Source: Amphibalanus amphitrite (lineage: Eukaryota; Arthropoda; Thecostraca; Balanomorpha; Balanidae). Taken from it: a stretch of DNA of 64,000 nucleotides. The stretch is taken from assembly GCF_019059575.1 (NCBI RefSeq), contig NW_024881612.1, forward strand, positions 682,001-746,000, in the 5' to 3' direction. The translations under genes and the position numbers were made by a program. The first letter of the stretch is position 1; each line of letters begins with the position of its first letter. This document shows, piece after piece, positions 3,445 through 64,000 of this stretch. The notes under the pieces were generated by a model. That model was not told the DNA's origin and made no database searches. It was given only the letters and a program-made list of their open reading frames with translations.

Positions 3445-4490
3445 AAAACACCCTGCACGGCCATAGCGCCTCAGTCTATAGTCATGCCGGCATTGATTCG
3501 TCACTGACCATCCGGCGATTTATAGAAAATACGAGCAACGGATGGGCTAAATGTCTCCCAAGTTATCCCATCAGTCGCTTGTGGATGTTTTTACTGGCAA
3601 AGTATCTTCTCACATCAAGTCGTTGTCTTCTCTCAGTCGGCGTGTTTTCACAATACTGCGAAGCCTTTCAGCTCAACCCTAGGATGTTCTCTGCCATAGA
3701 CCATAGTCATCATCAAATCTTAGTGCTGAGTTGCTGGTCCATACAAACCGAAATTACTACCGTTTGATTATCACCAGAATATCGCGGACAGTAGCGCATA
3801 GCCCTCTTCCCGAGTCAGTCCCAGCCCTCCTCCCGAAATAGCCCCCACCGAGAAAATGCCCGGCGCCCCTGCACAGTCCGTCCCTCCTTCCCAGGCGCCA
3901 TTGATTCCCAATTCTGGCTGTGTAGTTTGCATGCCGGTCAGAGTCGGCACACAAACGCTGGGAAAGAGCGCCCAAAGAACGGCCATTCTCGAGAAAACTA
4001 CTGACGCCACGAAAAGCCTCTCGGCGCCGGACGCGTCAAGGCCAGTGGAGCGGAAAGTTGTCAGAATTTCGGTCAGAGATTGTTGAAGTAAAAACTTTAA
4101 GCGGATGCCAGACTTCAGACAAATACCTCAAAACTGACAAGTCTTGGTAGAACTTGATGGAATATTTTACGTCGCGGACTGGGAGCGTCCGAATAAAATC
4201 CCGTGCTGTGCATTAGAACGGAGCCGAAGTTCTGACGCAGCAGGTTCCCCCACCAAGTTATGACGATTTCAGCGGGCGCTGCTCCCCTCTGGTACGGCAG
4301 CTGAGACCCCGGGCCCCTACACGGCGATCAGCTGCCAACGACACAAACAAACTCGGGCCGAGCTCGCCGATTTATGGGGTCCATTCCGGCCAGGGAAAAT
4401 AACCGAAACGACTCCGTCGCCGAAGATGAAACGCACCATTCTGCGAGCGGGCCCTTTCCGTGTAAATGAAGCGTCAGGTCGGGACGATAT

Positions 4491-5686
4491 CCCTCGCCCC
4501 GTTGGGGGGGGGGCATTTTGCCCCCCCCCCCTGTGGTTTTTCCTGAATAGCAAGAAAACGGCGGGCGGCTCAGCGCCGCCAAATTTTCAGTACCTTCCCG
4601 GGCATCAATTTAACACCTTCACACCAAATTTCAAGTCTTAGGTCACCTTAAGTCAGGAGCTATTGAGGTCAAACTGAGGTCATGTTCGAGCAGAAATGAG
4701 CAAAAAACATGCAATTTTTAAACGCTCACCAAATCTACAGTTATCAAGCAGTTTCAAAGTTCTTTATATGGTCTAGTAGACAAAAAGCGGCGCTACAAAA
4801 CTGCTATCTCTGATTTTCGAAATTTTGGGTTTTTGACCCCAAAAAATCCAAAAAATTGATTTTTTTTTAGAAAAACTAGAAAAAATCCAAAAAATTTCCG
4901 AATTTCGAGACAACCGGGATATATGTGATAGTCCCTGCGCTTTTCTATATACATACCAAATTTCAGATCGATATCTCGTTTTTTGGCCAAGTTATAGCGG
5001 AAAAAAACTGTTCAAAAATGATGACGTCAAATTTTTAACTCAATTTTTAGCGATTCTAGACCACGTACGGCAAAACAAAGACCACCATTGAACTCCCCGT
5101 GACGAGCTGCATCGATTCGATACCCATTTTATGCAAAAATATTAACTTTGAAATTTGACCTAATTTGACCTGACCTTGACCTGACCTTTACCTGACCTTG
5201 ACCAAAACGTGACCTAAGCTGGCCCCAAAGGCTGCCTGAACCACATAATCGCATTTGTCATGTAAAATGGACCATAAAACATGTATCACACGACACATTC
5301 ATATTGTGACCCCCCCCCCCCCGTGACCTGACCTCTGTTACCTGACCTGGCATCAGTGACCTCAAATAGCAAAATATATGTTTGAAGAACATTTCCCCAT
5401 CGATGATTTTCAATGAAATGCATTTTACTCGATTTTACAACGCATTTCTTGAAATGCCTGTAAACGGTGAAAATTGGACCTTTGACCTGACCTGTGACGT
5501 CATCGGTTTGACCTAGGTCAATAAAATTGGGTCACAAGGTAGTTCCCTGATAGGGCTATCCAACACCGTTTGCCGCTTGTCGCTAGGTTGCGTGGTTCTC
5601 GAGATCTTTGGGGGGCCAAAATGCCCCCCCCCCCCCTAACGGGGTGCGTTGCTCGGCAGAGCCCAACGGGGCGCGCCCGGCGCGGG
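4491..5686 (+). mobile_element. Hairpin-ended half-site element, family A
   Basis: This 1,196-bp non-coding element is flanked by ATAT (4487-4490, 5687-5690). The left end is CCCTCGCCCCGTT, then a G-run, CATTTTG and a C-run. The right end mirrors this as a G-run, CAAAATG and a C-run, then a longer terminus in which the CCCCGTT word recurs, ending CGCGGG. The interior has many TGACCT words (for example 5157-5215, 5318-5365). It lies in the robo Ig2-Ig3 intron. Orientation is given as single-word end to double-word end. Confidence 0.75.
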
Positions 5687-5877
5687 ATATCGGAGCTGCG
5701 GGGCCTCGAGCTGCGAGCTGAGCTATCATCTTACAAAGAGAAGAGTAGCACCGAGCTATCAGATAACGCAGAGGGATTAGCCGTTTTGAGCTCTCGTCTG
5801 TCTCACACAGAGACAAGCCACCAGGCATGTTCGCTGTTGTAATCTCTATATATCTCTTATAATCTCTCGATTCTTAC

Positions 5878-6011
5878 CTCTCACGGAGAGACGAGCCATA
5901 TCGGTAAGTCGCTTCATCTGTGCGTAGTTTCTAGCTTCGCAGGTATATTCCCCGGCGTCGGCGCGGGTCACGTTCTCGATGACCAGGTCACCCTCTCGCA
6001 CTAGACGGTAC
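5878..6011 (-). CDS. robo: Roundabout receptor, Ig2 exon, second half
   Basis: This exon completes Ig2 with 44 codons. The acceptor CCACACAG|G is phase 2. It joins the previous exon as FSERR-YRLVREGDLVIEN, then ADAGEYTCEARN with the second conserved Cys, and ends ARLSVR. The donor AGAG|GTAAGA is a near-consensus site in phase 1. Drosophila Robo has the equivalent segment RVRIVDGGNLLISN...DEGNYKC. A non-coding TTAA-type element (4491-5686) sits only about 190 bp beyond this donor in the intron. Confidence 0.88.
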
Positions 6012-11572: not shown

Positions 11573-12685
11573 AGAGCTAACTCAGCGATCAGATACCGGT
11601 TGCATTGACGGCTGCGTAGACGAAGCAGAGACGGTTTGTCAGAGGAATCAGAGAACGAGGTCAGTTATGGGTAAACCGAAAATCCTGCTTCGATCAAAAG
11701 GTCAATGTGTTTTACTGAAGTTATGTGAAGTCTATCCGTATGTTTTCAATAATCATGTGTTCATTGAAGCGGTGCAAATATAAACAATTCTTAAATTATA
11801 TAACCGATAGAACTATGCCACCATACACCAATGACCAAACAATACCTATTTCAGACTCTGAAAGACTGTTTGGAGAAATCTGTCGTTTCGACAGAGCGCC
11901 CCAGCCGTCTGTCATTCTGTCTATCACTTACAGCTGTCAGGGAAGAAAGCTCACTTTTCAGGCTGCTCAATAGCATTAGCCTCCGAGCCGATGAAAGCAA
12001 TCTACTAATGGAATTGGATTATGCTGTGTGAAGAAAATACTGCAGTAAATGCAATAAGGAAGTTAGAGCCGAGTTTCTTAATTTTCGATTGTCAACCAGC
12101 CCGATGAAATGATGGTAGCCAGGTGCTATTTGAGGAAATAAGAAAAAAAGCTAAGTGGAGTTCCGAAGCTTCAAGGCACCCACAGAGCTGACACTGTAAA
12201 AAGGTGTCTAGGCCCAAACCATGTTTGTGTCGTGTACTTGCGCAGGCCTAACTTGGTACAATTCTTCGATGTCCTTTTTTTGTGGTCAGCGTCTTTTTTT
12301 TTGCCTTCAGCTCCAACAGCTCCCCATCACTGGTGCTCCGGACGGCTAATGACAGGTTGGCCGTCTATCTCCAGTTCCGTTCCCGCGACAGACTAGTATT
12401 TTCCGAGAGGCTTCGGCCGTAGCGGGGACGGCCATTTGCGCCGCACGGGCGGCTATGAAACTCTGATCCCTGCGCACTAGCCCGCCTGCCGGGCCGAGCT
12501 CGGCACGACTCCGGCGGCATTTGGCCGCTGTTCTGACCCGCTCGGCGCCGCGCCGGCTCACGTGAATGACCCACGTGACCTGCAATGGTGAGCTCCCGTA
12601 CAGATATCCGACTGTGAACCGCCCATCTCCCGATCCAGATGCCGGCCAGCAGGGGTCAGCGCACTGATGAACTCGGAGGAGGATC

Positions 12686-13223
12686 CAAGGCCATATATAG
12701 AAGGTACAGTCACTCCCCCGCCGACCAATCAGAGACAGATCCTGAGTGACGTCATCCCTGATGCTCGCAAGGGGTACTCCATTCCTTAACAACGTAAAAA
12801 TGACAAACTTTTCATTTGAAAATTATTTGATACTTTTCACCTATTGCTCAAACGTTGATGTCACTCGAAAGCCCAACTAATTTTCTAGCGACAAAAAAGA
12901 GCAGCAATATGCTAAGAAATGGCCGGTTTTGAAGATATAGGCGATTTAAAAACCCTCTGCAGTAGCAGAAAAGCAACGTAAAAACGCATCGAGCTTATAT
13001 TTTTACTATAAATAAATCATTTTTCAGTATGTTTTTCGATAACGTATTGATATGATTAACAACTTTATTACAATATTTTTATTATTTGTAACTTTATTTC
13101 AAAATAATATTTTCAAAAATGGCAGCTGTTGGCAAGAAGCTTGGAAGCGATTGTGGCGCACCACGCCATTATTGTCTTGAGGCCCCCTTATGATGTCATC
13201 AAAAGTGGAGTGACATGGGCCTG
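12686..13223. mobile_element. hAT-type MITE, copy 2
   Basis: This 538-bp element is a near-identical relative of 2924-3444, with its own exact 8-bp target duplication GGAGGATC at 12678-12685 and 13224-13231. The different duplications show two independent insertions. It lies in the robo Ig1-Ig2 intron and is non-coding. Confidence 0.88.
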
Positions 13224-14158: not shown

Positions 14159-15387
14159 CCCGCGCCCTGCTGGGGGGGGGGTGTTTGAACACCCCCCTTG
14201 TGATTTTTCGCGAATATCTCAAAAACGGCCGCGCGGAGCGCCGCCGTTTTTGGTACACCTTATCATACGTCAATTCTACACATGTTGTGAAAATTTCAGA
14301 CCAAGGTCATTCAAGGTCAGGTCACCAGGTCACTTGAAGTGACCTCACCTCATAAAAAGTTTCAATGTCTGTCATAGCTACACCGAGTGACCGATTGCTT
14401 TGAAACTTTCAGCGATTGCTAAGAGCAATAGCATGTACAAAATGTATATCTCAGAATTTTGATATCGATGACCTAAGGTCAGGTCAATTTTGCGACCTCC
14501 CCATTATATAGGTAAGTCAATGGGAGAAAATTGAAATGCGCCTCGTTTGGACAAAAGACATTATAAACACTCCCAAACACCGAATTACAAGTGGATTAGA
14601 CACACTGAACATGAAAATGGTGTCCGTGACCCTTGTTTATGCCCTGAGGTCATCTAAGGTCACGAATGGTATCTAACAGTTTTTCGCAAATAACTTTTGA
14701 TAGAGGCATGCTAGAGCGATGAAAACGCCTTAGATGTGTTCAGCTCGACGATACGGATCGACTGATATGCAACATGACCCTTTCCGGTCAGGTCATGACC
14801 TTGACCTGAGGTCAAATTTTCAAGTTGACCTTTCAAGGTCAAATTTTCAAGTTGACCTTTCAAGGTCAACTTATAGTTCCTTCCATGCGTCTTGACGAGA
14901 GGAACACAATGCCGGTAAAAGTAAGCTCGTACAAGGCTTGGGTCAAAAGTTATTGCAGAAAAACTGTTTCCGAAAAAATCAGCTATTTTTGCAGTTTTTG
15001 CCCCCTGCAGGCAAAACCGTTGAAGTTAGGTCAAATCTGAGAGGATTACTCAGAAAGGGCTTTAATAGGGCTATCTATCGAATGCGCTTTTCCGCGGCGC
15101 TGTAGCTCTATTGGTTCTCGAGTTATGCGTTGGCTTCTTGGAAATTTTCGACATTCGACCTGGAAATCGGCGAAATTTTGCCTTCAATGACCTCTGGTGA
15201 CCTGACCTTTGACCTGACCAAAAAATTGACCGAAGTGATTTCGTCATTATTTTTGACGCTCTTTCGAACGCCGCCTTCCGCGTATCGCTAAGTGGCCCAG
15301 GAGCGAGTTACAAGGGGGGGGGGTGTTCAAACACCCCCCCCCCCCCCAGCAGGGCGTGGAAATCCAGGACCCCCAGCCGGGCGCGGG
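14159..15387 (+). mobile_element. Hairpin-ended half-site element, family B, copy 1
   Basis: This 1,229-bp element is flanked by TTAA (14155-14158, 15388-15391). The left end is CCCGCGCCCTGCT, a G-run, TGTTTGAACA and a C-run. The right end is a G-run, TGTTCAAACA and a C-run, then AGCAGGGCG, a spacer, and AGCCGGGCGCGGG. Next to the left hairpin lies a GC-rich palindrome (14223-14252). The interior is full of AGGTCA words, including TCAAGGTCA at 14311. It contains an internal 30-bp tandem duplication (14809-14868) that copy C lacks. There is no ORF of note. Confidence 0.85.
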
Positions 15388-15807: not shown

Positions 15808-16727
15808 CCCGCGAGTTGCTGGGGGGGGGGGGCGTTAAACGCCCCCACTTTTTCGCTGGGCCATAGCATAAAAACGGCGCACCGCAGGCGCGCCAGAATT
15901 TGGGTACCTGTAGGGAATTGATTGAAGTTTATTGTGACAAAGTTTAAAAAAAAAATCGGTCGGAAAATTTTTGAGATATCGAGGTTTTAGTGACGTCATG
16001 ATTTCTGAGTTTTCGACCAAAAACGGCATATGTTCAAAAAATCATATAAAATCACAAAATAGACATACAGACATGCCGTAAACGCCATTAGACTGCCAAT
16101 ACCATGGACAATCAAATGGCTATCTTCGATTATTGATTATCGTTCTGCATTTTCCAAAATCTTGAACTGAATCTTGGCAATTTCTCGCGACTACTTCACG
16201 ACCATGATACATACATTTCTTAAATTGAACTTTTTGAGCCAAACACGTACACATACGATAAAATGAATGTCACCATCGGGTTCTACGCCCCAAATTACCC
16301 ATGAAACATGTGTCGCAGGCTGCGAATATCAGTTTTGATTTTCGGGGATATGTGCCTACCCGGTTGACCTGACCTTGACCCTGACCTATGCTTGACTGAC
16401 CCCTACATGGAGCTGACACTCTTGTAGGCCTTATATGATGGATTGTGCACCGTTTTGACAACGTTTATGACGAGAGGCGCCCATTGCGAAGCCCTAAAGT
16501 CCATGCTACTGAAAGCCCGATTTCAGGTGTTTGACCTGACCTTGACCCGACCTGTGACCTCAAAATTCAACTATAAAGTACTCATCTGAAGCGTCTCGTC
16601 GCGCTCTTTCGTTTGCCGTCTCGTGCGTTTCGCTGCGCCTATTGGTTCTCGAGTTATCGGCTGGGGGCGTTTAACGCCCCCCCCCCTAGCAAACGGTGGG
16701 TGGCGAAATACCCCAGCAACTGCCGGG
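15808..16727 (+). mobile_element. Hairpin-ended half-site element, family D, copy 1
   Basis: This 920-bp element is flanked by ATAT (15804-15807, 16728-16731). The left end is CCCGCGAGTTGCT, a G-run, CGTTAAACG and a C-run. The right end is GGGGGCGTTTAACGCCCCC, TAGCAAACGG, a spacer, then CCCAGCAACTGCCGGG. Half-sites are present (16366-16390, 16526-16560). An inverted second copy lies at 53788-54726. Confidence 0.82.
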
Positions 16728-17097: not shown

Positions 17098-19343
17098 TGA
17101 CCTTTTTCCACAAAATCTGAGTTAGGACCATTTTCTGACAAAACACAACAAGTTATAATGTAAATTAAAACCATTTTGCTCAATTCGGTACCTTGCCGCA
17201 AATATCTCAACTTGAAGTCACGTTAGCGGGGAGCGCTGAAAATGACCGTTGAATAAGTACTTACATCACTTTTGGTACTTGCATTTAATTTTGTAAAATG
17301 AGCGTATTCATTACATTTGATCTTCATCACATCTAGTTAGTTAATGGTCGTCTATAGTGCCTTCAAAAGATATTCATGGTTTGGGGGTGGTTTATGTCTA
17401 AATTTACGCAACTATTTTTCCTGTTCATCATCTGACGCCATATGCTGCTATTTTAGTAGCAACGACTCAATTTTGAATCGGTCCCGCCGACTGCACAATA
17501 AAAGAAGATAGATACAACACTTTTGCGGCATCACTGAAAAACTTATGCAGTACTGTTATCAAAATTCTCATAACACCGTTCGACAAACCTGAAGTCTTTT
17601 TGAAATAAATATGCTTGTATTTTTCGCTTCAGGCTCTGAGGCCAAAATAATGAATTTCGTAGTCGCAATCGCAAGATTTGGCTGCGTTTCTGGCGCTTGC
17701 CGTTCATTTGTGGCGCAAAATAATACTTGGAAACAAAGAAGAGTAGGCACTATGTACCCCCGAATTAGGATCTAATTAATTCTAAACCTCGTATATCGTT
17801 GAGAGCTGTTGCGAGGAGCATGATAAATGTAGGAAATATCATTAACTCTAATTCACATTAGAATCCTTACAACCAAGCAACGACAAGGCGATAACATAAA
17901 CAAAAACCCAAGCGTCGCTGTTTGAAACAAAAGCGCCATATACTGCGACTTTTTTATAGAGAAGGACAACGCATTTCGGTGGGTGTTACAAGTACTGCAA
18001 GTACTGCTTCTTTTTTGCAAAAATAAAAACCTTTTTCACATACGAAAATGTGCTAGGAAATTTTCATATTTTATAAAAACTACAGTAGAAATAATATAGA
18101 TGTCGAGTAATTTTTATTTAACCCGCGCCCGGCTGGGGGTCCTGGATTTCCACGCCCTGCTGGGGGGGGGGTGTTTGAACACCCCCCCCTTCTAACTCGG
18201 CTCCTGGGCCACGTAGCGATACGCGGAAGGCGGCGTTCGAAAGAGCGTCAAAAATAATGAGGAAATCACTTCGGTCAATTTTTTGGTCAGGTCAAAGGTC
18301 AGGTCGCCAGAGGTCATTGAAGGCAAAATTTCGCCGATTTCCAGGTCGAATGTCGACAATTTCCAAGAAGCCAGCGCATAACTCGGGAACCAATAGAGCT
18401 ACAGCGCCGCGGAAAAGCGCATTCGATAGCCCTATTAACGCCCTTTCTGAGTAATTCTCTCAGATTTGACCTAACGTCAACGGTTTTGCCTGCAGGGGGC
18501 AAAAACTGCAAAAATAGCCGATTTTTTCGGAAACAGTTTTTCTGCAATAACTTTTGACCCAAGCCTTGTACGAGCTTACTTTTACCAGCATCGTGTTCCT
18601 CTCGTCAAGACGCATCGAATGAACTATAACTTGACCTTGAAAGGTCAACTTGAAAATTTGACCTCAGGTCAAGGTCATGACCTGACCGGAAAGGGTCATG
18701 TTGCATATCAGTCGATCCGTATCGTCGAGCTGAACACATCTAAGGCGTTTTCATCGCTCTAGCATGCCTCTATCAACAGTTATTTGCGAAAAACTGTTAG
18801 ATACCATTCGTGACCTAAGATGACCTCAGGGCATAAACAGGGGTCACGGACACCATTTTCATGTTCAGTGTGTCTAAACCACTTGTAATTCAGTGTTTGG
18901 GAGTGTTTATAATGTCTTTCGTCCAAAAGAGGCGCATTTCAATTTTCTCCCATTGACTTATAATGGGGAGGTCGCAAAATTGACCTGACCTTAGGTCATC
19001 GATATCAAAATTCTGAGATATACATTTTGTACATGCTATTGCTCTTAGCAATCGCTGAAAGTTTCAAAGCGATCGGTCACTCGGTGTAGCTATGACAGAC
19101 ATTGAAACTTTTTATGAGGTGAGGTCACTTCAAGTGACCTGGTGACCTGACCTTGAATGACCTTGGTCTGAAATTTTCACAACATGTGTAGAATTGATGT
19201 ATGATAAGGTGTACCAAAAACGGCGGCGCTCCGCGCCGCCGTTTTTGAGATATTCCCGAAAAACCACAAGGGGGGGGGGTGTTCAAACACCCCCCCCCCC
19301 AGCAGGGCGCGGGTTAAGAAAAAAGAAAGCTCATTATCTCCCT
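17098..19343. mobile_element. TTAA-flanked AGGGAGAT element, split by element C
   Basis: Inverted termini AGGGAGATTATGA (17098) and TCATTATCTCCCT (ending 19343) are flanked by TTAA (17094-17097, 19344-19347). The span of 2,246 bp includes the whole of element C (18122-19313) inserted near the right end, so C is younger. The remaining 1.05 kb is AT-rich and non-coding. Confidence 0.7.
18122..19313 (-). mobile_element. Hairpin-ended half-site element, family B, copy 2 (inverted)
   Basis: This 1,192-bp element is flanked by TTAA (18118-18121, 19314-19317). It is highly similar to 14159-15387 but in the opposite orientation, with the double-word end on the left (CCCGCGCCCGGCT, spacer, CGCCCTGCT, G-run) and the single-word end on the right (AGCAGGGCGCGGG). 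It is nested in the 17098-19343 element. With copy 1 it forms a potential stem of about 1.2 kb in the robo intron. Confidence 0.87.
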
Positions 19344-29803: not shown

Positions 29804-30805
29804 CCCGCGCACCGACGGGGGTCTGCGCCAACTTAGTACCGACGGGGGGGGGGCGGATGACCGCCCCCCCCTGAGATCTCGAGAACGAAGCAAGATAGCG
29901 ACAAGCGGTAAACGGCATCGGATACGCACGGTCAAGATCTACAATTTTTACTAAGGTCATTTTCAGGTCAGGTCAAAGATGACGTCACAGGGGTCGAAAA
30001 AGCCAAAATGGCGGCGCTAAATATGGAGAGAGTTTTTCTCGAATAACTTTCGAATTAGTCAAGATAGGAGCAAACTAAGGGCATCATCGTGATCCTCTCG
30101 TCAATCCGCATCGAATGATATATATGTTGACCTCGAAAGGTCAAGGTCAAAGGTTGACCTCAGGTCACGTGACCTCGAGGTCATCATGTATATCATTCGA
30201 TGCGTCTTGACGAGCTGAACACAATGAGACCATCCACGCGTCTGTATCTTGTTCCTGTACGGAGTTATTGGCCAAAAACCTTTGGTGACCTTTGATGACG
30301 TCACATGACCTCACAGCTGCCCAACAGCAAAACAGACCTCAAGGTAGTGAAGGTTGATCGTATATGAAGTCATGTATGGTATATGGGGCCATTCCGACCC
30401 GTTTTAGTGGTAAAAACAGGGAGTTGATTTTTCCCCCATTGACTTATAATGGGGAGGTCGCGAAATTGACCTGACCTTAGGTCACCGATATCAAAATTCC
30501 GAGATATACAAATTGTAGCTACTAATGACCTAATAACATCCTGCGACTTTCAAAGGCCTCCGACATCTACTGTAGCTCTGGCACGGTGACAAAGTTGCAA
30601 AAAAGTGACTTGAGGTTGGGTCATTCAAAGTGACCTGGTGACCTGACCTTGAAAGGTAGGAGGTTCAAACTTGCACACCATGTGTAAAATTGATAAGGGA
30701 ATAGTCATACCAAATTTCGCGGCGCTACGCGCCGCGGTTTTCCCGCTATTCGCGAAAAACCTCAGGGGGGGGCGGATATCCGCCCCCCCCCCGTCGGTGC
30801 GCGGG
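29804..30805 (-). mobile_element. Hairpin-ended half-site element, family E
   Basis: This element is 1,002 bp. The right flank is TTAA (30806-30809); the left flank is GATA, presumably mutated. The left end carries the word twice (CCCGCGCACCGAC, spacer, ACCGAC, then a G-run). The right end carries it once (GTCGGTGCGCGGG). Hairpins are a G-run, CGGATGACCG, C-run and a G-run, CGGATATCCG, C-run. The GC-rich palindrome GGCGCTACGCGCC is sub-terminal. The interior is dense in TGACCT and has palindromic TGACGTCA-type words. Confidence 0.82.
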
Positions 30806-40574: not shown

Positions 40575-41494
40575 CTCCTAGTTTTTGTCATGACGAATGA
40601 TCTTTTTTTTTCAAGGGTTTTTGTTACAAAAAAAATACTATGGAACAAGATCTAGAGAAAATATGTTAGTGAATTATACCAAACGCAACAAACCAATGTC
40701 AACTCCAGGCGCTGCAGAGGATGTAGCCCGCCATCCACACCAGACTTTTCGCTCGGATGATCGTTTCCCCTTCGAAGAATTGCCCCACGCTCGCCCAGAG
40801 AATCCCGCCAGCCAACTTCCTCAGGTAGCCGAAGCGGCCCTCGTTCATGTCCGATTGTGTGTTCCTCAGGACCCTTCTGTCGATAGTTATTGAAATTGCA
40901 ATAAGAAGGGAATCTGTATCAATTTGGCAAATTTTCGAACAACATTTCTTATTCAAGCCACATTTAATTATTAGAATTTTAATAACTATGGAGGAAAAGG
41001 TTAACATAAAATCGAACTACCTACTTATAATGGAAATTACTTTTGCGCGAATCAGAAGTTAATCGACCACGGTGGGTTCTGAAGCGCGCACAGCTCTATT
41101 CCTCGAATAATTCTCTTCAACGCCTTATTCCTAGTTAAGCGAATTAGTCCACCCTGGCTGAATGAATAAGGCGATTGCGCCAAAACGTCGCGGAAAACCG
41201 ACCGATAAAGGCCGCGCTCAACGTTAATTTGGGCATGTAGACTCTTAAAAACTCGCATTGGGCGGATAGTTTCCTGGGTATTGGCTCTAAAACGTATTCG
41301 GGTCCCGAATACATCCAAGTGATCCGCCTCGTTCCTAGTTAAGCTCTAATTAGATCAAGTGACTCATAAGGAGCGAAAAAGCGACAAAAAGTATGAATTT
41401 CCCTATGACGGTGGGCTGCCGGGTTGCCAGACGGCGCACCGGCTATTTCCACTTTTTGACACACCATGTGTGGTTATTTACCGGCGCCACCCTG
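40575..41494. other. Unannotated intergenic stretch
   Basis: Short ORFs only. TTCCTAGTTAAGC occurs twice (41126, 41332). Confidence 0.35.
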
Positions 41495-41760
41495 TACATA
41501 TATATGTTACAGGCCGTATGAAAACTCAGTCCGTTTGCAAACGGCCTGGCCCGATTCAGGCCGTTTGCAAACGGCCTGGACGGCCCAGTCAGTATGCAAA
41601 CGGACTGAAAAGTCAGGCCGTTTGAATACGGGCTGAAATTCCAGGCTGTATGCAAACCGCCTGAAATTTCAGGCCGTTTGCAAACCGTCTAGGCCGTATG
41701 ACAGCTTTCCAGACACCAGGCCGTTTGCAAACGGTCTAGGCATTTTGAAAACAATCTGGC
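41495..41760 (+). repeat. Palindrome array CAGGCCGTTTGCAAACGG, left copy
   Basis: About ten units built on AGGCCGTTTGCAAACGGCCT, each close to a perfect palindrome. It starts ATATATGTTACAGGCCGTAT. The same sequence appears inverted at 44893-45100. Confidence 0.8.
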
Positions 41761-42315: not shown

Positions 42316-42995
42316 CTGTTAAGTTATGACGTCATAATTGAGTATAATACAGGATCTAGCACCACTTTAAGTCAACAAGGGAAATTGGGAGCTGCTATTC
42401 GGGCACCGGGAATGGTTTCATGCACTCCTTGCAAGGTCCAGTGCTTCACTTTAGCATTGTTGACTTTGCGTGACGTCATTTATGACGTCACTAAGGCCAT
42501 ATAAGTTTTTCGTCAATAACTCCTGATCAAATGGAGCTAGAGAGTCGGGAAAGCCACCATTGGACTCAGGAAGACCTGCCGAATCGAATGATATGCGATA
42601 TGACCTCCTTCAACCATTTTCATGACCTGAGGGGCTCCGACCTGACCTTGACCCGAGGTTAACACCTAAGTTGACTTCACCCGAACACCAAGTATAGCAT
42701 TCAACGCGCCTGAGCTAGAAAAACACGATGATGCCAAAATCGCGGCAGTGCGACCATTTTTGGCAAAGTAATTAACCTAAAACTGAGCCCGTCCCTTGTG
42801 GCACTTACCTGACCTAAGAGGCCACTGGCTGACCTAAGACCTTAAAATCGGGTAGTACCTAATTGTTGCGTCTTATAACGGCACACAAGCTCGTTTTTTC
42901 CGCGAGGCTCTAGCTCAATTATAAGAGGCGAAACGGCGAGGAAGTTGTACCAACCCTCCCCGGTCAATATAGAAAACCAATCGGTCCGGCCAGGG
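42316..42995 (+). mobile_element. Decayed family G half-site element, left end lost
   Basis: This is co-linear with 59730-60601 (for example CGTGACGTCATTTATGACGT, then TTTTTCGTCAATAACTC, then CCGCGAGGCTCTAGCTC). It ends GTCCGGCCAGGG plus TTAA (42996-42999). The terminal G-run/C-run hairpin has eroded. It lies between the two palindrome arrays. Confidence 0.7.
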
Positions 42996-43955
42996 TTAAA
43001 TACCGGAATTGTGATCTAATGTAAAAAGACGGCCCAAGGTAACCCGACGTCAGTGACAGGTGTCCTATATTTGCAGCGTCTTATATTCACGAAGGTTTCA
43101 ATTTCCAATTTCTTCAGCCGAGTGATGGCTGTCAATAGCAAGGCTCTTTAAATGCAAGCCGAAATCGCCACGCAACATGTGGAAGGCTTTTGATGTCAAT
43201 GCATACATAAATGCATACATAAAACGCGCTTTTCACAAAATTCATAAACTCAAGCGCATCTGTTTTTAATGACCAGTCAACTACGCATGGATGCGTGCAG
43301 GCCACACAGGTCAGCGTAAGCCGGGCGCGGCGGCCGAGCCGAAACTGGGGCGGGGCGGGCGGTACTTGGGTAGGAAGAGCGGCTCCTGCAAATTTTGCGC
43401 AAATATGCGCAGTTAGCTTTTATGTTGCCCTGGTGTAAATTTAAATCCTGCTTCATCTCACAAAAAATCAGAGTGGAACTAGATGGGACTACCTGTTGTT
43501 TCCTTACCTAAACTTTGCAGTTATATTCCAAAATCACTGTAGGAGAGCCGTCATAAAAAAGCTACAGTAAATCTTAGTTAGGGGAAAAGTATACCAAAAA
43601 TTTTGCACTGACCAGTCGGCAACTTCATAACGAACATTTTGATGCATAATATGTGGGATTTCAATTTGGTGTCTATCAGCAATAAGACTCTGAATATCCG
43701 GCTCAAGAAACCTCTTGCTCCGCGTCAGTTTCCGAGTTCTGGGATACCCCATCTTCGGGGGCTGATTACAGTTATTTTTGGTCACCCGGATTAGTTTTTT
43801 TGGCCTAAGTATAATAATTTGATCAATTTCAAATCGATCTATATAAAAAATAATCCGAAACTCCGGAATCGCCCGTGGCCTCTCGTGAGGGCGTTTCCGA
43901 CCAGTGTGCGCCGGCGCGGCGGTCGACCGGGCGCGGTAAGGACTCTGATGTGAAC

Positions 43956-44556
43956 CAGTGGCGCGGGAACTTCTTCCAGACTGGGGGGGGGGGGGGGGCT
44001 GAACCATAATAGAGATCAACCTAGGGTACCCCCAAATCTAATTTTCTCACTGGTTTTAGGCCACTTATTTTTCAGACCTTGGCCTTTTCAACAAAAAAAC
44101 GAAAATATTTGCAAAAAAGTCAGGTAATCCGTCTCAGCTGAGTGAAGAAACTACCGTTTTGGCAGCCTGGAATAAAGGTTTTAATCTGCCAAATGAGTTG
44201 CCGAGCCAGTGAAAGAGGTGGGTTTTCACTTACATGCTTGCTTCCTTTGTGACCCACAACCCCTAATTACGGGAGGACAAGCTGCCCCAACGGTTCCTGA
44301 CCTCATGAAAAGTTGTGGGGCACCGCCCCTACGGCCCCAGAGCTGTGGGAGCAAGCTTCCCCCACTGCCCCCTCCCCCGGTTCCCGCGCCTATGTATGAA
44401 TCTATGAAATTATGTTGGTAGATTTCTTATTTCGATTCCTCCAGCTGGGGGGGGGGCTCAAATACATTACGAGCCCCCCCCCCCCCCCCCAGCCGAAAAT
44501 TTGGAGGGGCTCAGCCCCCGCTAGCCCCCCCCCCCCCCCTGGTTCCCGCGCCACTG
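43956..44556. mobile_element. hAT-type MITE, 601 bp
   Basis: Perfect termini CAGTGGCGCGGGAAC / GTTCCCGCGCCACTG carry an exact 8-bp duplication ATGTGAAC (43948-43955, 44557-44564). It is non-coding, with long G- and C-runs. Confidence 0.92.
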
Positions 44557-44892: not shown

Positions 44893-45100
44893 TACTTCGC
44901 CAGACCGTTTGAAAACTGACTAGGCCGTTTTCAAACTGTCTAGGCCGTTTCAAACTGCCTAGGCCGTTTTCATACGGCCTGATATTTCAGGCGGTTTGCA
45001 AACGGCCGGCTTTTCAGGCCGTTTTCAAACGGCCTGACTGGGTCAGGCCGTTTGCAAACGGACTGGGTTTTCATACGGTCTGTAACATATACACATACAT
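44893..45100 (-). repeat. Palindrome array CAGGCCGTTTGCAAACGG, right inverted copy
   Basis: This is the inverted counterpart of 41495-41760. It ends ACGGTCTGTAACATATACAC, the mirror of that copy's start. The two may be the ends of one 3.6-kb foldback-type element. Confidence 0.75.
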
Positions 45101-49445: not shown

Positions 49446-50182
49446 CAAGTTTTAGACAAATCCATTTACGTTCATCTCAGTTGTGCACCACGACTTGACT
49501 CCTATAGTTTATCACTTTCTCGAGGCGCTCGCGGTACGCCAGCGCTGTTTTCTAGCGCATCTCGACGGTGATCTCTGCGGAGGCGGCTCTGAACCGACCG
49601 TGTAACTCCGGAATGTTAGCCGGCTGCGTCACGTATCCTACGACTTCACAAACCCCCACATGAAAAATTCACACGCGGGGTGAGGTTGGGCTTCGCCCAA
49701 ACTGCCCTGGCCACCGCACTCGCCCAATTTGCCCTGGCCACCGCGCTAGCCCAAACTGCCCTGGCCACCGCACTCGCCCAATTTGCCCTGGCCACCGCGC
49801 TAGCCCAAACTGCCCTGGCCACCGCACTCGCCCAATTTGCCCTGGCCACCGCGCTAGCCCGACCTCACCCCGCGTGTGAGGTCGTATTGCTGTTTTGTTT
49901 ACTTGTTTAATACATGCTGTGGCGGGTCACTGTAACGTTGGTTTAGCAGAAAGAATTTTTTCATGTGGGGGTTTGTGAAGTCGTAGGCATACGTGACGCA
50001 GACGGCGAACATTCCGGAGTTACACGGTCGGTTCAGAGCCGCCTTCGCAGAGATCACCGTCGAGATGCGCTAGAAAACAGCGCTGGCGTACCGCGAGCGC
50101 CTCGAGAAAGTGATGAAAAACGATAGTGGTCACGTTCAGGTGCACAACTGAGCTGAACGTGAATGGATTTGCCTAAAACTTG
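49446..50182. mobile_element. Foldback element with tandem-repeat core
   Basis: Long inverted arms (about 49446-49680 and 49950-50182) start CAAGTTTTAG and include CTTTCTCGAGGCGCTCGCGG and CATGTGGGGGTTTGTGAAGT. A smaller inverted pair (CACGCGGGGTGAGGT / ACCTCACCCCGCGTG) brackets the core. No clear target duplication. There is no transposase. Confidence 0.85.
49701..49862. repeat. 54-bp tandem repeat (two 27-bp halves)
   Basis: ACTGCCCTGGCCACCGCACT starts at 49701, 49755 and 49809, a period of exactly 54. Half-units alternate CAATTTG and CAAACTG. Because 54 and 27 are multiples of three, both strands stay open (ALATALAQ / WASAVARA). Confidence 0.92.
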
Positions 50183-52215: not shown

Positions 52216-53110
52216 CCCTCGCATGTGTAGGGGGGGGGTCGGATGGACCCCCCCCATGGTTTTTCGCGAATAACTCGCGTAAAAAGCGGCCGATTGCGAC
52301 GAAACTTTCAGTACCCTCGCATTGATCAATTTGACACCTACTCTGAAAATTGCATGACCCTGACCCAAATGACCTTTGACCTGTGACCTCTTTTCCGAGA
52401 CCATGTTTGGCCGGAATCGCGATTCGGCGTACGTCGGCTCGCATTAGCCGCGCGTTTGCAAGCTTTTCGTGGTTTTAAACGTTCAAACATGTGATTTGAT
52501 GTTGCTCCCATGCATTAGGGTGGGTGTCAAGGTCACCTGAAGGTCAGGTCAGGTCATTGATCTTTGGTGACCTCGGGTGACCTCGGGTCACTTTTTCGAG
52601 TTTTACATGTTTCTAGGCTAGTTTTTGGAGCTGAATTCGAATTTAGCAACCATTTGAACATTTACGAAGTAGTTTTGGTGCCTTCGTAACATCTTACGAA
52701 GCTGTCAGAGGCGGTTGACACGTACTATGAATACCCGTCACGACGCCTACTGATTGACCTGACCTGACCTGACCCGACCTGGTCTAAATGCTTAAAGACA
52801 TCATCTGTGATCAAAACTAACACGATATTCGTGATCAGCACCCCGAAAAACCCCTTAGCAGCCACACTTTATGACTTTCTAATAGGTCCCGATTTTCCCG
52901 ACTTTGGGTCATTGACCTGACCTGGAAGGTCAACCAATGACCTAGGACCTTAAAATTGGGTATCATCGGCTTCCTCTCGTCACGGGCAACACGCTCGTTT
53001 TTTCCGCGAAGCTCTAGCTCGATCAGGGGCCAAACGGCAAGGGGGGGGGTCCAACCGACCCCCCCCCCCCTACACATTAGAAGCTGGAAAACGCCGCACA
53101 CATGCGAGGG
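52216..53110 (+). mobile_element. Hairpin-ended half-site element, family H
   Basis: This 895-bp element is flanked by TTAA (52212-52215, 53111-53114). The left end is CCCTCGCATGTGTA, a G-run, TCGGATGGA and a C-run. The right end is a G-run, TCCAACCGA and a C-run, then TACACATT, a spacer and CACACATGCGAGGG. TGACCTGACCTGACCTGACC lies at 52754. Confidence 0.85.
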
Positions 53111-53114: not shown

Positions 53115-53783
53115 TTTCGCCGGATGAAAATTTGACCTCAGGTCAAGGTCATGACCTGACCGGAAAAGGTCATGTTGCATATCAGTCGATGCGTCTCAAC
53201 AAGACAAACACAATGAGACCATCCTCAGCGTCCTATCTCTTTCCAATCGCGAGTTATTGGCATGAAATATGTTTGTAGCCTCTAATGACCTCGGATGACC
53301 TTTCTAGAGGCTATCAGCAAAAATGACACCTTGGTCATCACGGGTGGTCCAAATCATTGTGATTCTGAAATATTTGGACTGTTCCTATGCGTACACATGG
53401 ATCTAGAGGCATTTTCATTTTTCTCCATTGACTTGTAATGGAAAGGTCACGCAACTGACCTGACCTTAGGTCACGAATATAAAAAAAAATCCGAGATATA
53501 CAAATTGTAGGCGCCCATAACATCATGCAATCCACCAAGTTAAACCTTTCTGACAAACACTGCAGGCTGGACATGATTGCAAACTTTTTTAGGCTTGGTC
53601 AGTTAACTTGACCTGGTGACCTGACCTGACATGACCTGGGGTCAACAATTTCACACATCGTCCAAAATTGATGTACCAAAAGCTACCCCAAGCGGCACGG
53701 CGCTACGCGCCGCGGTTTTTTATTCACACGCAAAAAAACGCGACAGGATGGTAACATATGCCCCCCCCCCACTGGGGCGAAGG
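53115..53783. mobile_element. Degraded half-site element (E-like) between H and D'
   Basis: It begins directly at the TTAA that ends H and stops at the CTAA that starts D'. It contains the shared core (CCATTGACTTGTAATGG, GAGATATACAAATTGTAG), the palindrome GGCGCTACGCGCC (53700) and a residual C-run with CACTGGGGCGAAGG. The left hairpin is lost. Confidence 0.6.
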
Positions 53784-53787: not shown

Positions 53788-54726
53788 CCCGGCAGTTGCT
53801 GGGGTATTTCGCCACCCACCGTTTGCTGGGGGGGGGGGGCGTTAAACGCCCCCAGCCGATAACTCGAGAACCAATAGGCGCAGCGAAACGAACGAGGCGG
53901 CAAACGAAAGAACGCGACGAGACGCTTCAGATGAGTACTTTAAAGTTGAATTTTGAGGTCACAGGTCGGGTCAAGGTCAGGTCAAACACCTGAAATCGGG
54001 CTTTCAGTAGCATGGACTTCAGGACTTCGCAATGGGCGCCTCTCGTCATAAACTCTGTCAAAACGGTGCACAATCCATCATATAAGGCCTACAAGAGTGT
54101 CAGCTCCATGTAGGGGTCACTCAAGCATAGGTCAGGGTCAAGGTCAGGTCAACCGGGTAGGCACATATCTCCGAAAATCAAAACTGATATTCGCAGCCTG
54201 TGACACATGTTTTATGGGTGGGTAATTTGGGGCGTAGAACACGATGGTGACATTCATTTTATCATATGTGTACGTGTTTGGCTCAAAAAGTTGAATTTAA
54301 GAAATTCATGTATCATGGTCGTGAAGTAGTCCCGAGAAATTGCCAAGATTCAGTTCAAGATCTTGGAAAATGCGGAACGATAATCAATAATCGAAGATCG
54401 CCATCTGATTGTTCATGGTATTGGCAGTCTAATGGCGTTTACCGCATGTCTGTATGTCTATTTTGTGATTTTATATGATTTTTTGAATATATGCCGTTTT
54501 TGGTCGAAAACTCAGAAATCATAACGTCACTAAAACCTCGATATCTCAAAAAATTTCCGACAGATTTTTTTGAAACTTTGTCACAATCAACTTCAAATCA
54601 ATTCTCTACAGGTACCCAAAATTTGGCGCGCCTGCGGCGCGCCGTTTTTATCCTATGGCCCGGCGAAAAAAAGTGGGGGCGTTTAACCAAGACGTTTAAC
54701 GCCCCCCCCCCCCAGCAACTCACGGG
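53788..54726 (-). mobile_element. Hairpin-ended half-site element, family D, copy 2 (inverted)
   Basis: This 939-bp element has right flank TTAA (54727-54730) and left flank CTAA. It is closely similar to 15808-16727 in reverse: double-word end left (CCCGGCAGTTGCTGGGG, spacer, CCGTTTGCT, G-run) and single-word end right (AGCAACTCACGGG). A small duplication breaks the right hairpin (54677-54712). Confidence 0.82.
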
Positions 54727-58405: not shown

Positions 58406-59268
58406 CACGCGCAGTGGAAGGGGGGGGGGGCGGATTTCGCCCACCCCTCCTGTTTTTCGCTAATAACTCGCGCCGCAAATATGATATTAATGTGAAATTT
58501 TGGCTACCTGTCCAGAATTGAACTGCCGATCTTCTCGTGCAAGAAATAAAAAAATCGGGTCACAACTTTTCTAGTAATAGCGGTGTAAAGTCAAACATCC
58601 TGCCGCCGCGGCGGCGCGGCGGCGCGGCGGCCGGCGCTAGCCGTTACGCGCCGCCTGAATTGTAGACTGTGCCGGGGCGGGACGGTTCCGTCTTTACATC
58701 GCGCTCCTTACCGCTGATTATATTCGATTCTCGTCAAATTTTGTGAGAAGACTAAGAAATGTACAGGCAATCTTATGGTCAAAGAATTTTGAAAATCGGC
58801 CGGTAACAACTTGAGTTATGAGTGTGTAAACACAAAATTGTGATTGCCGCGTTTCCCGCGTCCGCCGATCCCGCTTCAGCCGGCGACATCTTACGCTTAG
58901 CAGGCTTCTAACTGCCATATTTATTGTTGGATTAACAAGAAGTTCATCATACATACTCACAAATGTATGTTCTTTCGTATAGTGAAAGAAAAAAGAAAAT
59001 CGGCCGGTAACTTTTTGAGTTATCGGCGTGTAAACGCAAAAAAGTCGCTAAAATGGCAGATTTGACCACTTTTGACCTCATTTGACCTTGAAGATATTGA
59101 CCTAGGGTCATGAAATTCACACACAACAGAGTTCCCCTGGGCCCCCACCTACCCTCCAAATTTCGTCTTTCTAGCTCCAGTGGGAGCTGAGATCTTAGGG
59201 GGGGCGACATCCGCCCCCCCCCCCTCCTTCCACTGGGCGTAGTACTCGCAACCCTTCCACTGCGCGTG
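58406..59268 (+). mobile_element. Hairpin-ended half-site element, family J
   Basis: This 863-bp element is flanked by TTAA (58402-58405, 59269-59272). The left end is CACGCGCAGTGGAA, a G-run, CGGATTTCG and a C-run. The right end is a G-run, CGACATCCG, C-run and TTCCACTGGGCG, a spacer, then TTCCACTGCGCGTG. Half-sites are fewer than in the other families (59080-59110). It lies in the bHLH intron or upstream region. Confidence 0.82.
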
Positions 59269-59586: not shown

Positions 59587-60601
59587 CCCTCGCCGGCCGA
59601 GGGGGGGGCGGCATAGGGTTTTTTCGCGATAGCTCCGAACACGCTGGCGATAGAGAGCTGAAACTTGGCATACCTGACCTTTGATCCAAGCCGCATCTTT
59701 TGACACCAACCGCATTTTTGGGTCAGGTCAGGTCACTGACCTATGACGTCATAAGTGAACCTCTGCACGGTCTTCAGATGTCGCAACTTCGCAACGCCCT
59801 CACTGCCAGAGGAGATGTCACAGGGAAATGAAACTTGCAGGATCTAGTATCCATTATGAGTCCCACAACTTGTATATCTCGGATTTTTCCTAAAGGTCAT
59901 ATGAGGTCAGGTCATTTTCGTGACCTCACCATTATAAGTCAATGGGGAAAAATTCAAACTGCTATTCTGGCGCCGGGAACGATCTCCAACTATCTCAAGC
60001 ACACAGAATCGTGATTTTATGCACTCCTTGCAAGGTTAGATGCGTCACTTTTGCAATGTTGACCTTGCGTGACGTCATTTATGACGTCATCAAGGTCAAA
60101 TTAGTTTTTCGTCAATAACTCTTGATCAAATTGAGCTAGCGAGTCGGGGAAGGCACCAATGGACTCAGGAAGGCCTGCCGAATCGAATGATATGCGACAT
60201 GACCTCTTTCGACCAGCTTCGTGACCTGGGGGTGCTGACCTGACCTTGACCTGAGGTCAACACCCCAAGTTGACCTGACCCGGACACAAAGTATATCATT
60301 CGACGCGCCTGAGCGAGGCGAACACGATGCTGCCAAAATCGGCGCTCTGCGGCCGTTTTTTGCGAAGTTATTCACCAAAAACTGAACCGTACCTTGGGGC
60401 ACTTGACCTGACCTCAGAGGTCACCGGTTGACCTAGGACCTTAAAATCGGGTACCAATCTCTGCGTCTCGTAACGGCGCACACGCTCGTTTTTCCGCGAC
60501 GCGCTAGCTCCACCAGGGGCGAAACGGCGAGGGGGGGGGTCGTACCCGCCCCCCCCCCCTCGGCCGGCGCGTATGTAGAAAACCAATAGGTCCGGCGAGG
60601 G
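59587..60601 (+). mobile_element. Hairpin-ended half-site element, family G
   Basis: This 1,015-bp element is flanked by TTAA (59583-59586, 60602-60605). The left end is CCCTCGCCGGCCGA and a G-run; its hairpin C-run is worn. The right end is a G-run, TCGTACCCG, C-run and TCGGCCGGCGCG, a spacer, then GTCCGGCGAGGG. It contains TGACGTCATTTATGACGTCA (60070) and many TGACCT words. Confidence 0.83.
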
Positions 60602-60800: not shown

Positions 60801-60879
60801 GGATTTATAGTCCCATTTTATGATTAAAGAGGGTACATCCAAGACCCGATTGAACTAATCTAAGGCCTAGGAGGGCCCC

Positions 60880-62290
60880 GTTCCATGGCATGAGAGGGTC
60901 ATTTCAGGCCTGAGAGGGCCCATTTCAGGTCTGTGAGGGCCCATTTCAGGCCTGAAGGGGCCCAGTTGAAGCTTGAGAGGGCCCATTTCAGGCCCTAGAG
61001 AACCTGTTTGAGGTCTGAGATGGGCCCATTGCAGGCCTGAGAGGGCCCATTTGATGCCTGTGAGGGCCCATTTCAGGCCTGAAGGGGTTCATTTCGGGCC
61101 CTAGAGGGCATGTTTGAGGCCTGATAGGGCCCATTTCAGGCCTGAGAGGGGCCCATTTCAGGCCTGAGAGGGGCCCATTTCAGGCCTGAGTGGGCCATTT
61201 CAAGCTTGAGAGGGCCCATTTCATGCCCTAGAGGGCCTGTTTGGGGCTAGAGAGGGCCCATTCGAGGCCAGAGAGGGCCCGTTTGAGGGCTGAGAGGGGC
61301 CCATTTCAGGCACCATTTCAGACCTGAGAGGGCCCAGTTACGGTAAGAGGGGGCCCTTTTCGACATTTCCGGGCTGAGGGGGCCCATTTCAGTTCTGAGA
61401 GGGTCCATTTTTCAGGTCTGAGAGGGCTAATGTCAGGCCTGAGAGGGCTCATTTCAGGCCCTAGAGGACCTATTCGAGGCCTGAGAGGGGCCCATTTCAG
61501 GTCTGAGAGGGCTAATGTCAGGCCTGAGAGGGCCCATTTCAGGCCCTAGAGGGCCCATTTCAGGTCATAGAGGACCTATTTGAGGCCTGAGAGAGGCCCA
61601 TTTCAGGCCCGAGAGGGCCCATTTGATGCTGTGAGGGCCCATTTTAGGCCTGAAGGGGTCCATTTCAGGCCCTAGAGGGCATGTTTGAGGCCTGATAGGG
61701 CCCATTTCAGGCCTGAGAGGGGCCCATTTCAGGCCTGAGGGGACCCATTTCAAGCTTGAGAGGGCTCATTTCATGCCATAGAGGGCCTGTTTGAGGCTAG
61801 AGAGGGCCCGTTTGAGGCCAGAGAGGGCCCGTTTGAGGGCTGAGAAGGGCCCATTTAAGGCATAAGAGGCACCATTTCAGACCTGAGAGGGCCCAGGTAC
61901 GGTATGAGGGGGCCCTTTTTCGACATGATAGGGACCATTTCCGGGCTGAGGGGGCCCAGTTCAGGTCTGAGAGGGCCAATTTCAGGTCTGAGAGGGCTAA
62001 TGTCAGGCCTGAGAGGGCCATTTCAGGCCCTAGAGGACCTAGTTGAGGCCTGAGAGGGCCCATTTCAGGTCTGAGAGGGCTAATGTCAGGCCTGAGAGGG
62101 CCCATTTCAGGCCCTAGAGACCTATTTGAGGCCTGAGAGGGTCTACTTCAGGCCTGAGAAGGGCCCATTTCAGGTCTGAGAGGGCCCAGTTCAGGCCTGA
62201 GAAGACATCCCAGGAGTGAAAGGATCATCCTATGTGTGGGAGGGTCCGTACTCCGTGCCTGGCCTGGATCTGAGAGGGCCTACCCCAATC
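60880..62290. repeat. Minisatellite, about 21-bp unit, with higher-order period
   Basis: The unit is GGCCTGAGAGGGCCCATTTCA with frequent variants, over 1.4 kb. A run of distinctive variants (TTTGATG..TGTGAGGG, then CATGTTTGAGGCCTGATAGGG) occurs at 61050 and again at 61622, a higher-order repeat of about 572 bp. Confidence 0.93.
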
Positions 62291-62607: not shown

Positions 62608-63019
62608 ATGGAGGTCCCGCAGTACGATATGTCAGCCTCTGAGAAAGCCATGCAGGGCCCTGCCAAGCCGACATCTGAAAATCTTCTCAGGCCTGTGCCT
62701 GCCTAACCGCCCGGCCCCATCCCGACGTCTAGGGGTTTGACGCCTAGGTATTTATCGGGACCCCACACAGGTCCATGATGGCTCCAAACTGACACCTGAG
62801 GCTCCTGCACCGGCTTTTGAGGAGCCCACCGACATCTGATAGCCACCACGCAGGCCTCAAAAGACCATGTCGATTGTCGATATCTAAACCCCGAAGGCTT
62901 GGGAGGCCTGTGGTCTATGCAGATTCTTGAGGGCTTTACGTTGGCTTGTAAATATCCCAAACTGGCTCTAGCCTAGCTCGACCGCGCCCCGCAGAGCAGG
63001 GCCCCAGGCTTTCGACTTT

Positions 63020-63300
63020 TACGCCCCTGAGGGGTGTTTGAATATTCCCTTCTAACCTGACTCCAGGGTCACGTAGCGACAAGTGCGGCGATAGGCGGCT
63101 TTGTAAAGAGTGTGGAAAATAATGGAGAAATTACTTCAGTCATATTGCAGTTCAGACCAAAGCACACGTCATCATGTTCATCGAAGGAAAAGTTTCGCCT
63201 ATTTCGACACTCGAGGACATAAAAGCTATAGCGCGCTGAAAGTGGGTTCGATAGCTCTCTAACTCGTGCAATCAGCCATGGGGGGGGGGGGCGTATCGGC
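63020..63300. repeat. Decayed family B element fragment
   Basis: GGGGTGTTTGAATATTCCC and GGGTCACGTAGCGACAAG match the left part of 18122-19313 with many changes. Another G-run at 63281 is unassigned. Confidence 0.55.
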
Positions 63301-63750
63301 CAAACCCGATCATAATTTAAGACGGCTAGAAAGACGAGAAAAGCAACGGATAGCTATAAGATGCTTCAGAATCGTAGAGGTCATTTTTCGATTAGGTCAT
63401 CGCTGAGGTAATTGAAGATGAAATTATGATAAAATTATGATAAACACAAAGACAATATTACCACGAAAAAATCTTGTTTTTATATTTTTCACAAATAACC
63501 GTATAACTCGTGAACCAAAGAGCTAGAGCTTTGCGGAACAACTCATTCGATAGGCCTTTCAAAACGCTTTCGCTTTTAAGATTTGACCTCAATGCCTCAT
63601 GTCAATGGTTTGGCAACAGAGCAGAGGGTAAAACCGGCAAAACCATCTAAATAGTCGCATTTTACCAAAACACTTTTGCTAAGAATTTTTGCAAGGACTT
63701 TGGTGAGCAAAAACTATGAGACATTTACTTTGTCATCATTCTCTTGTTAA

Positions 63751-64000
63751 CCCGCGCCCTGCTGGGGGGGGGTGTGTTTGAACACCCCCCCTTGTGGTTT
63801 TTCGCGAATATCTCAAAAACGGCGGCGCGGAGCGCCGCCGTTTTTGGTACACCTTATCATACATCAATTCTACACATGTTATGAAAATTTCAGACCAAGG
63901 TCATTCAAGGTCAGGTCACAAGGTCACTTAAAGTGACCTCACCTCATAAAAACTTTCAATGTCTATCATAGCTACACCGAGTGACCGATCGCTTTGAAAT
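63751..64000 (+). mobile_element. Hairpin-ended half-site element, family B, copy 3 (cut by window end)
   Basis: TTAA (63747-63750) then CCCGCGCCCTGCT, a G-run, TGTTTGAACA and a C-run. The palindrome AACGGCGGCGCGGAGCGCCG and half-sites follow, as in 14159-14408. Confidence 0.87.

Follow-up and report, generated by a model that had tools for sequence, protein, structure and literature searches.

Short elements of the barnacle Amphibalanus amphitrite with palindromes between G and C runs at their ends, probable non-autonomous members of a piggyBac clade

The piggyBac transposon of Trichoplusia ni is among the described systems closest to the elements considered here. An insertion and a duplication account for the 28-bp difference between its two ends, LE35 and RE63; its internal palindromic repeat is bound as a duplex, and bent, by a dimer of the C-terminal cysteine-rich zinc domain (CRD) of the transposase, and recognition is stated to depend crucially on residues Y558, R567, and K569 (all from the sections of PMC7351741 drawn on here). 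We analyzed a stretch of 64,000 nucleotides from A. amphitrite (NCBI RefSeq assembly GCF_019059575.1, contig NW_024881612.1, positions 682,001 to 746,000 of the forward strand; hereafter the window), which contains short noncoding elements with a palindrome between a run of G and a run of C near each end. Genome searches covered the 807.55-Mb assembly of 2,644 contigs. The elements are very probably non-autonomous, internally deleted members of one piggyBac clade, whose CRD would bind the G/C-armed palindrome as a duplex. As mobile DNA they are of a familiar kind; the novelty lies in the ends, with the palindrome between long runs of G and C.

The window contains 19 sites with at least five G, 3 to 20 bases, and at least five C, compared with a mean of 0.57 and a maximum of 3 in 60 trials of a dinucleotide Markov model; the opposite order, C before G, is found at 0 sites, where the same model gives 0.70. 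Element ends account for 16 of the 19 palindromes, the exceptions lying at 37688, 44447, and 60636. Nine complete elements of 863 to 1229 bp were delimited, and a tenth, A3, is cut by the window edge. Three open reading frames (ORFs) of at least 150 amino acids occur in the window, none within an element, and a Pfam search with the three longest window ORFs gave no match. A preliminary description, made by reading the window sequence, had listed short elements with G-run/C-run ends, 0.86 to 1.23 kb long and without coding capacity, and these points were all borne out. The elements, and two partial copies, are as follows.

4491..5686, + strand: element D, 1196 bp, ATAT on both sides; left-end palindrome 4504-4531, right-end palindrome 5610-5636
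14159..15387, + strand: element A1, 1229 bp, TTAA on both sides; left-end palindrome 14172-14197, right-end palindrome 15314-15347
15808..16727, + strand: element C1, 920 bp, ATAT on both sides; palindromes 15821-15846 and 16663-16686
18122..19313, - strand: element A2, 1192 bp, TTAA on both sides; right-end palindrome 18162-18189, left-end palindrome 19270-19300
29804..30805, - strand: element H, 1002 bp, flanks GATA and TTAA; right-end palindrome 29844-29871, left-end palindrome 30765-30792
52216..53110, + strand: element E1, 895 bp, TTAA on both sides; palindromes 52230-52255 and 53041-53070
53788..54726, - strand: element C2, 939 bp, flanks CTAA and TTAA; right-end palindrome 53828-53853, left-end palindrome interrupted
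58406..59268, + strand: element G, 863 bp, TTAA on both sides, tips CACGCGCAGTGG; left-end G run at 58420, right-end palindrome 59198-59224
59587..60601, + strand: element E2, 1015 bp, TTAA on both sides; left-end palindrome degraded at 59601, right-end palindrome 60531-60559
63751..64000, + strand: element A3, left end only, truncated by the window edge; left-end palindrome 63764-63791
42413..42999, + strand: E2-like remnant, 80.8% identity to E2 over 605 columns; right tip at 42999, left end not recognized
53125..53720, no strand assigned: A/H-like interior fragment between E1 and C2; 66.7 to 68.3% identity to A2, A1, and H

A separate palindrome at 44447-44490 (G10 ... C17) has a longer center and no delimited element; it may represent a further family or an eroded end.

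Flanks of TTAA or ATAT had been proposed, and the same 4 bp indeed stand on both sides of seven of the nine complete elements, TTAA in five (A1, A2, E1, E2, and G) and ATAT in two (D and C1). ATAT on both sides was recorded for D (4487-4490 and 5687-5690), for C1 (15804-15807 and 16728-16731), and for a copy of family A elsewhere in the genome (L014); these flanks suggest that ATAT is a second target of the same machinery. Eight of the nine elements have CCC at both ends, and G begins CAC. The proposed outer consensus, CCC[G/T]CG, is present in most ends; G instead has CACGCG at each end, C1 and C2 have CCCGGC on the right, and the left end of C2 has CCCGTG. The families had been described by unrelated words; at their ends they are not unrelated, and the arms there align across 12 families. 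In the genome, family A alone was scored at 40 or more places (A1 is one of them), the first 20 at 94 to 100% identity over nearly full length; among 30 fetched loci, the ends lie mostly at TTAA, and some are eroded or cut.

The two ends of an element are not built alike. In the window elements, the palindrome starts at base 14 or 15 at one end and at base 41 to 45 at the other (51 in D). Read inward, the left end consists of a tip of 13 to 14 bases followed by the palindrome (degraded in E2 and C2), and at the right end the palindrome lies ∼27 bp further in, after ∼40 bases, with a partial repeat of the tip word beside it; in family A, this repeat reads CCCGCGCCCTGCT versus CCCGCGCCCGGCTGGGGGTCCTGGATTTCCACGCCCTGCT. 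The layout was followed in the window and the fetched loci by keeping tips that were palindromic and flanked by ATAT or by a sequence at most 1 base from TTAA, which retained 61 of 119 candidates, many of them family A, so that the 61 are not independent families. The palindrome follows after 13 to 15 bp in 29 and after 39 to 45 bp in 27 (56/61 together). These distances are independent evidence; the flank tally (50/61) is not, since the filter favors TTAA. The remaining five comprise three second readings from a neighboring TTAA, one eroded copy, and one chance match, and the L063 tip, counted among the 27, is likewise a second reading. Because the asymmetric layout with its tip repeat matches the LE35/RE63 plan of piggyBac, the palindrome is best read as a putative duplex binding site for a CRD dimer and not as a hairpin.

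The preliminary description had suggested that structure is recognized as well as sequence, which the present evidence does not support. An explanation in which hairpins or four-stranded G structures fold on single strands and are recognized by shape during excision or replication we consider improbable. Well-kept ends do self-pair by eye, and the excess of sites over expectation is large (19 versus 0.57); however, the G run precedes the C run in 19/19 sites and never follows it, which fits a directed site equally well, and only 4 of the 55 palindromes found in the 30 family A loci have G and C runs of the same length. The centers were compared between the left and right ends of 11 elements. 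They gave a mean score of 0.50 in the same orientation, 0.28 with one reversed, and -0.21 between families, and none of 5000 re-pairings reached the observed score. The same orientation fitted better in seven (A, C, D, E1, E2, G, and the L069 element), and H was tied; the reversed reading fitted better in C33, C44, and C702, three transposase-bearing elements described below, as a hairpin would have it. The centers were set by hand from the tip sequences, and the point at which the G and C runs are trimmed affects those of C33, C44, C702, and D; the related families D and C702 were counted separately. Against their own reverse complements, the left centers of E1, E2, and the L069 element scored zero or less. 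Finally, piggyBac binds the same layout as a duplex, according to the sections of PMC7351741 used here.

Autonomous relatives with the same kind of ends were sought through the piggyBac transposase domain PF13843, which matched 116 places in the genome. The top 30 were examined, and eleven further places were then fetched. Where tips were visible among the top 30, they belonged to other piggyBacs, with tips CCCATTAGYGCC, CCCTTTACCGGG, CCCATTAG-like, or CCCTTTACC and without G-run palindromes, which excludes these commonest piggyBacs as partners; L050, one of the 30, is nested inside a D-like element. The exception was L058 (C778), which showed no tip at first and had a G-run right end further out. 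Four G-run-ended elements carrying a PF13843 gene were identified in this way. C44, 3.97 kb long and flanked by TTAA at each end, has G-run palindromes at both tips, one of the right type and one of the left, and contains a 639-residue ORF. C33 (4.7 kb) has both tips, the left one beginning CCT, with TTAA on both sides and a 645-residue ORF. C702 has both tips and a 673-residue ORF, with another short element nested in its right arm. The evidence for C778 is one-ended, as only its right end was sought; that end was found, and the ORF runs to 504 residues from the first Met. Two other leads were set aside: L042 as a partner of a C-family end, the adjoining element ending at L042:709 with the transposase outside, and the tips at L064 and L071, which point away from the transposase and from which nothing was drawn.

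Similarity between the short and the coding elements differs by family. Bases 1-1032 of D match the left arm of C702 at 87.8% over 1036 columns, and the right end of D resembles that of C702. D thus corresponds to the C702 left arm and right end with the transposase lost, as expected of a non-autonomous derivative. The right-end arm of E1 is 91.9% identical to the right arm of C778 over 124 columns. A, H, and E2 resemble C33 in patches of 68 to 86% identity, one of them, of 27 bp, at 96%, and the L024 element is 89.8% identical to C44 over 245 columns. From this pattern we conclude that D and E have partners among the coding elements and that A and H are likely to have them. Transposase-bearing elements with the same kind of ends thus exist, with close partners for D and E only, and the piggyBac-like mobilization proposed earlier is supported.

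A nested insertion provides an empty site for comparison. The C778 element is interrupted by a C-family element, flanked by gatacccaatt-TTAA on one side and TTAA-ggtcctagg on the other; the counterpart in E1 is uninterrupted, gatacccaatt-TTAA-ggtcctagg. This insertion doubled TTAA.

The proteins of the four elements match nearly the full extent of the PF13843 domain (E values of 9.4e-60 to 2.2e-71). The C33 protein aligns with piggyBac (6x67) over residues 116 to 643, through the CRD, with an E value of 1.2e-56, and with piggyBat (9c0f) at 4.6e-21. Its motifs TIDE, TMDR, and GGVDVID line up with those of 6x67, and we take the aligned Asp residues to be catalytic. Two A. amphitrite proteins match the C33 protein at 98% identity across 51% of its length. 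A structure model of P0004, a relative of the C33 protein, gave 6x67 as its first structural match (E value of 1.8e-27); the mean predicted local distance difference test (pLDDT) score of the model is 75, with blocks of 57 to 76 in the C-terminal domain. A tree was built from 28 sequences, 18 of the 41 loci after removal of near-copies and 10 of 21 homologues. The four G-run transposases fall in one clade with 100/100 support, apart from nine sequences labeled as having other tips, three of them (L034, L059, and L066) by one visible tip; 15 are unlabeled, and no ends are assigned to L062, L064, and L069. A separate superfamily, as first described, is thus not called for, the transposases found forming one clade inside the piggyBac superfamily. 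The clade comprises ten sequences, and its nearest outside relatives include those of the insects Onthophagus and Eumeta.

Nine of the ten clade members show the Cys/His spacing of piggyBac (L058, L063, L065, P0001, P0004 to P0007, and P0009), P0001 only with a looser last Cys, and we interpret the pattern as a predicted piggyBac-type CRD. In the same number of members, the loop from the second to the third Cys is 21 to 24 residues long and contains 4 to 7 Lys or Arg residues, and six of the nine have G-x-G-[Y/F]-K within it. The loop has 9 to 11 residues in the outside relatives P0010, P0011, and P0014 and 11 in 6x67, as aligned with the C33 protein; by alignment numbering, R567 and K569 of piggyBac fall in it. 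The longer basic loop may read the G/C arms. The CRD pattern is absent from the remaining piggyBacs of the genome, which have a different C-terminal Cys/His spacing and, by it, may be nearer to the piggyBat type.

TTAA duplication is common to several superfamilies, and Kolobok and Sola3 also target TTAA. By itself, then, the duplication would allow the short elements to belong to one of these and to be merely piggyBac-like, which we regard as very improbable. All four of the transposases that accompany matching or similar ends belong to PF13843, which opposes this explanation for D and E, and the CCC tips of the window elements and their layout are those of piggyBac. The only domain matches in the four coding elements were to PF13843 and, below threshold, DDE_Tnp_1; Kolobok and Sola3 were not searched for genome-wide. 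It is scarcely credible that low-complexity sequence or misassembly added the long G and C runs to ordinary piggyBac ends: run lengths do vary among family A copies (G4 to G17 and C5 to C14), but the palindrome with its runs is present in 30/30 loci retrieved through their similarity to the whole element, spread over more than 20 contigs and with some ends eroded, and such runs are absent from the tips of 12/12 other piggyBacs with ends measured.

Several observations weigh against membership of all the elements in one piggyBac clade. The flanks are unequal in C2 (CTAA/TTAA) and H (GATA/TTAA). A and H match C33 only in patches, and their palindrome center is different. No coding element matches C or G, the only match of C being the C copy nested in C778. 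E1 and C778 share an arm and neither the tip word nor the palindrome center; in the comparison of E1 with C778 (loci L075 and L058), the family word differs at the right tip and at the inner right repeat, and the left tip of E1 carries E1's own word. No recognizable CRD is present in the reading frame of C44 (L061), and the reversed fit of three centers, noted above, belongs here as well.

On the piggyBac reading, mobilization would proceed as follows. The transposase core would recognize the CCC[G/T]CG tip, and a CRD dimer would bind the double-stranded palindrome, with its G-run arm, C-run arm, and family-specific center, the enlarged loop contacting the G/C arms. Owing to the asymmetry of the ends, transposase dimers could bring a left end together with a right end, and the element would be cut out and inserted at TTAA, or sometimes at ATAT. 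Short copies, which keep ends and arms, would move in trans with the transposase of their lineage.

The least expected part of the elements is their arrays of AGGTCA, a word used by animal nuclear receptors. AGGTCA/TGACCT is the commonest hexamer after CCCCCC/GGGGGG in the nine elements and A3, with 137 occurrences in 9,568 bp of elements (14.3 per kb) versus 75 (1.4 per kb) in the rest of the window, where many lie in degraded copies. The density ranges from 3.5 per kb (G) to 20.7 per kb (E2) in the window elements; it is 3.0 in C44, 7.0 in C33, 0 in the L069 element, and 0 to 1.5 in 12 other, mostly coding piggyBacs. Words at most 45 bp apart, a chosen threshold, were merged into clusters in 11 elements. 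Neighboring clusters lie a median of 170 bp apart, and 31 of the 42 distances below 450 are between 140 and 205 (five larger ones omitted). The first cluster is centered 155 to 170 bases from the left tip in 8/11 elements; E2 differs in having an isolated word at 91 and then a cluster at 147, and no cluster lies there in C1 or G. The last cluster is centered 165 to 189 bases from the right tip in 11/11, the L069 element, without the word, not being among them. When eight elements are taken over their first 1,100 bases, the spectrum of word positions has its peak at 173, with a value of 0.67 against a maximum of 0.48 in 500 random placements, which is not a clean probability, since the families are related. 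In the aligned right arms, the word stands at the same place in 9/12 (C1, C44, and the L069 element differ), and near the right end it keeps its place where much of the remaining arm has diverged.

Two explanations of the arrays were discarded. Neighboring words are most often 5 bp apart, with 21 such pairs on the same strand among seven window elements, a spacing that does not fit classical nuclear-receptor dimers. The left arm of C44 (L061/L072) consists of tandem units of ∼186 bp, 72 to 85% identical and each with AGGTCA words; a plain tandem repeat thus accounts for the ∼170-bp spacing in C44 and not in C33, whose units are no more similar than shuffles. A role in nucleosome phasing or nuclear-receptor binding would be a guess. 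A more elaborate scenario, to which we give a small chance of being right, is that the lineage, by doubling the CRD loop, came to recognize its ends through poly-G/poly-C palindromes and can change every copy of the family word (at the left tip, the right tip, and the inner right repeat) with the arms fixed, and that the AGGTCA ruler of the arms, of about nucleosome length, may phase nucleosomes, with nuclear-receptor-type proteins of the host in the linkers.

The window contains other repeats. A minisatellite at 60863-62202 has ∼63 copies of the 21-bp unit AGGCCTGAGAGGGCCCATTTC. At 49446-50182, inverted repeat arms that are 92% alike surround a 27/54-bp tandem repeat, possibly another foldback-type element. 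A direct repeat of ∼540 bp, 88.5% identical, lies at 2923-3444 and 12685-13223, and inverted copies of a repeat with units such as AGGCCGTTTGCAAACGGCCT lie at 41493-41760 and 44899-45099. A 250-bp TC microsatellite is found at 28071-28321.

In the parts of the literature on piggyBac, miniature inverted-repeat transposable elements (MITEs), AGGTCA, and barnacle genomes that were consulted (subscription journals and Repbase lay outside the scope), we found no description of such elements. There is no comprehensive repeat library for barnacles, according to the portion of PMC8917513 used, so that much barnacle DNA of this type may be unannotated. The elements offer a natural series of piggyBac ends from several families in one genome, in which center and tip word vary and the layout is fixed; with ends so varied and transposases related, a code between CRD and end sequence becomes testable.

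Comparisons with other described systems refer to the sections of each source drawn on here. Alu elements that carry DR2 retinoic acid response elements (PMC1785376) likewise show a transposon spreading AGGTCA-type half-sites; Alu, however, is a retrotransposon, and the commonest barnacle spacing of 5 bp is not that of DR1-DR5. Pokey and mPok of Daphnia (PMC3849761 and PMC4912750) are crustacean piggyBacs with short non-autonomous members, likened here by description and not by their ends; unlike the barnacle elements, they insert in ribosomal DNA. The coral CMITE (PMC2872659) comprises short noncoding TTAA elements related to piggyBac, with the interior more conserved than the tips, but is ∼100 bp long, and the main text of that source does not use the words palindrom, hairpin, or poly-G. 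The piggyBat element of Myotis lucifugus (9c0f; PMC11707139) shares a PF13843-type transposase and imperfect palindromes, with two CRDs binding, but its CRD has another fold, and it has three palindromes at the left end and none at the right. The piggyBac element of T. ni (6x67/6x68; PMC7351741) shares with the barnacle elements the TTAA target, the CCC tips, the DDE domain, a similar C-terminal Cys/His domain, an internal palindrome, and ends unequal by ∼27 to 28 bp, the right one having an insertion and a repeated piece. The barnacle elements differ from it in their long G/C-run arms, family-variable center, and AGGTCA clusters in the arms, and their clade in a CRD loop of 21 to 24 residues, where the piggyBac loop that holds R567 and K569 has 11.

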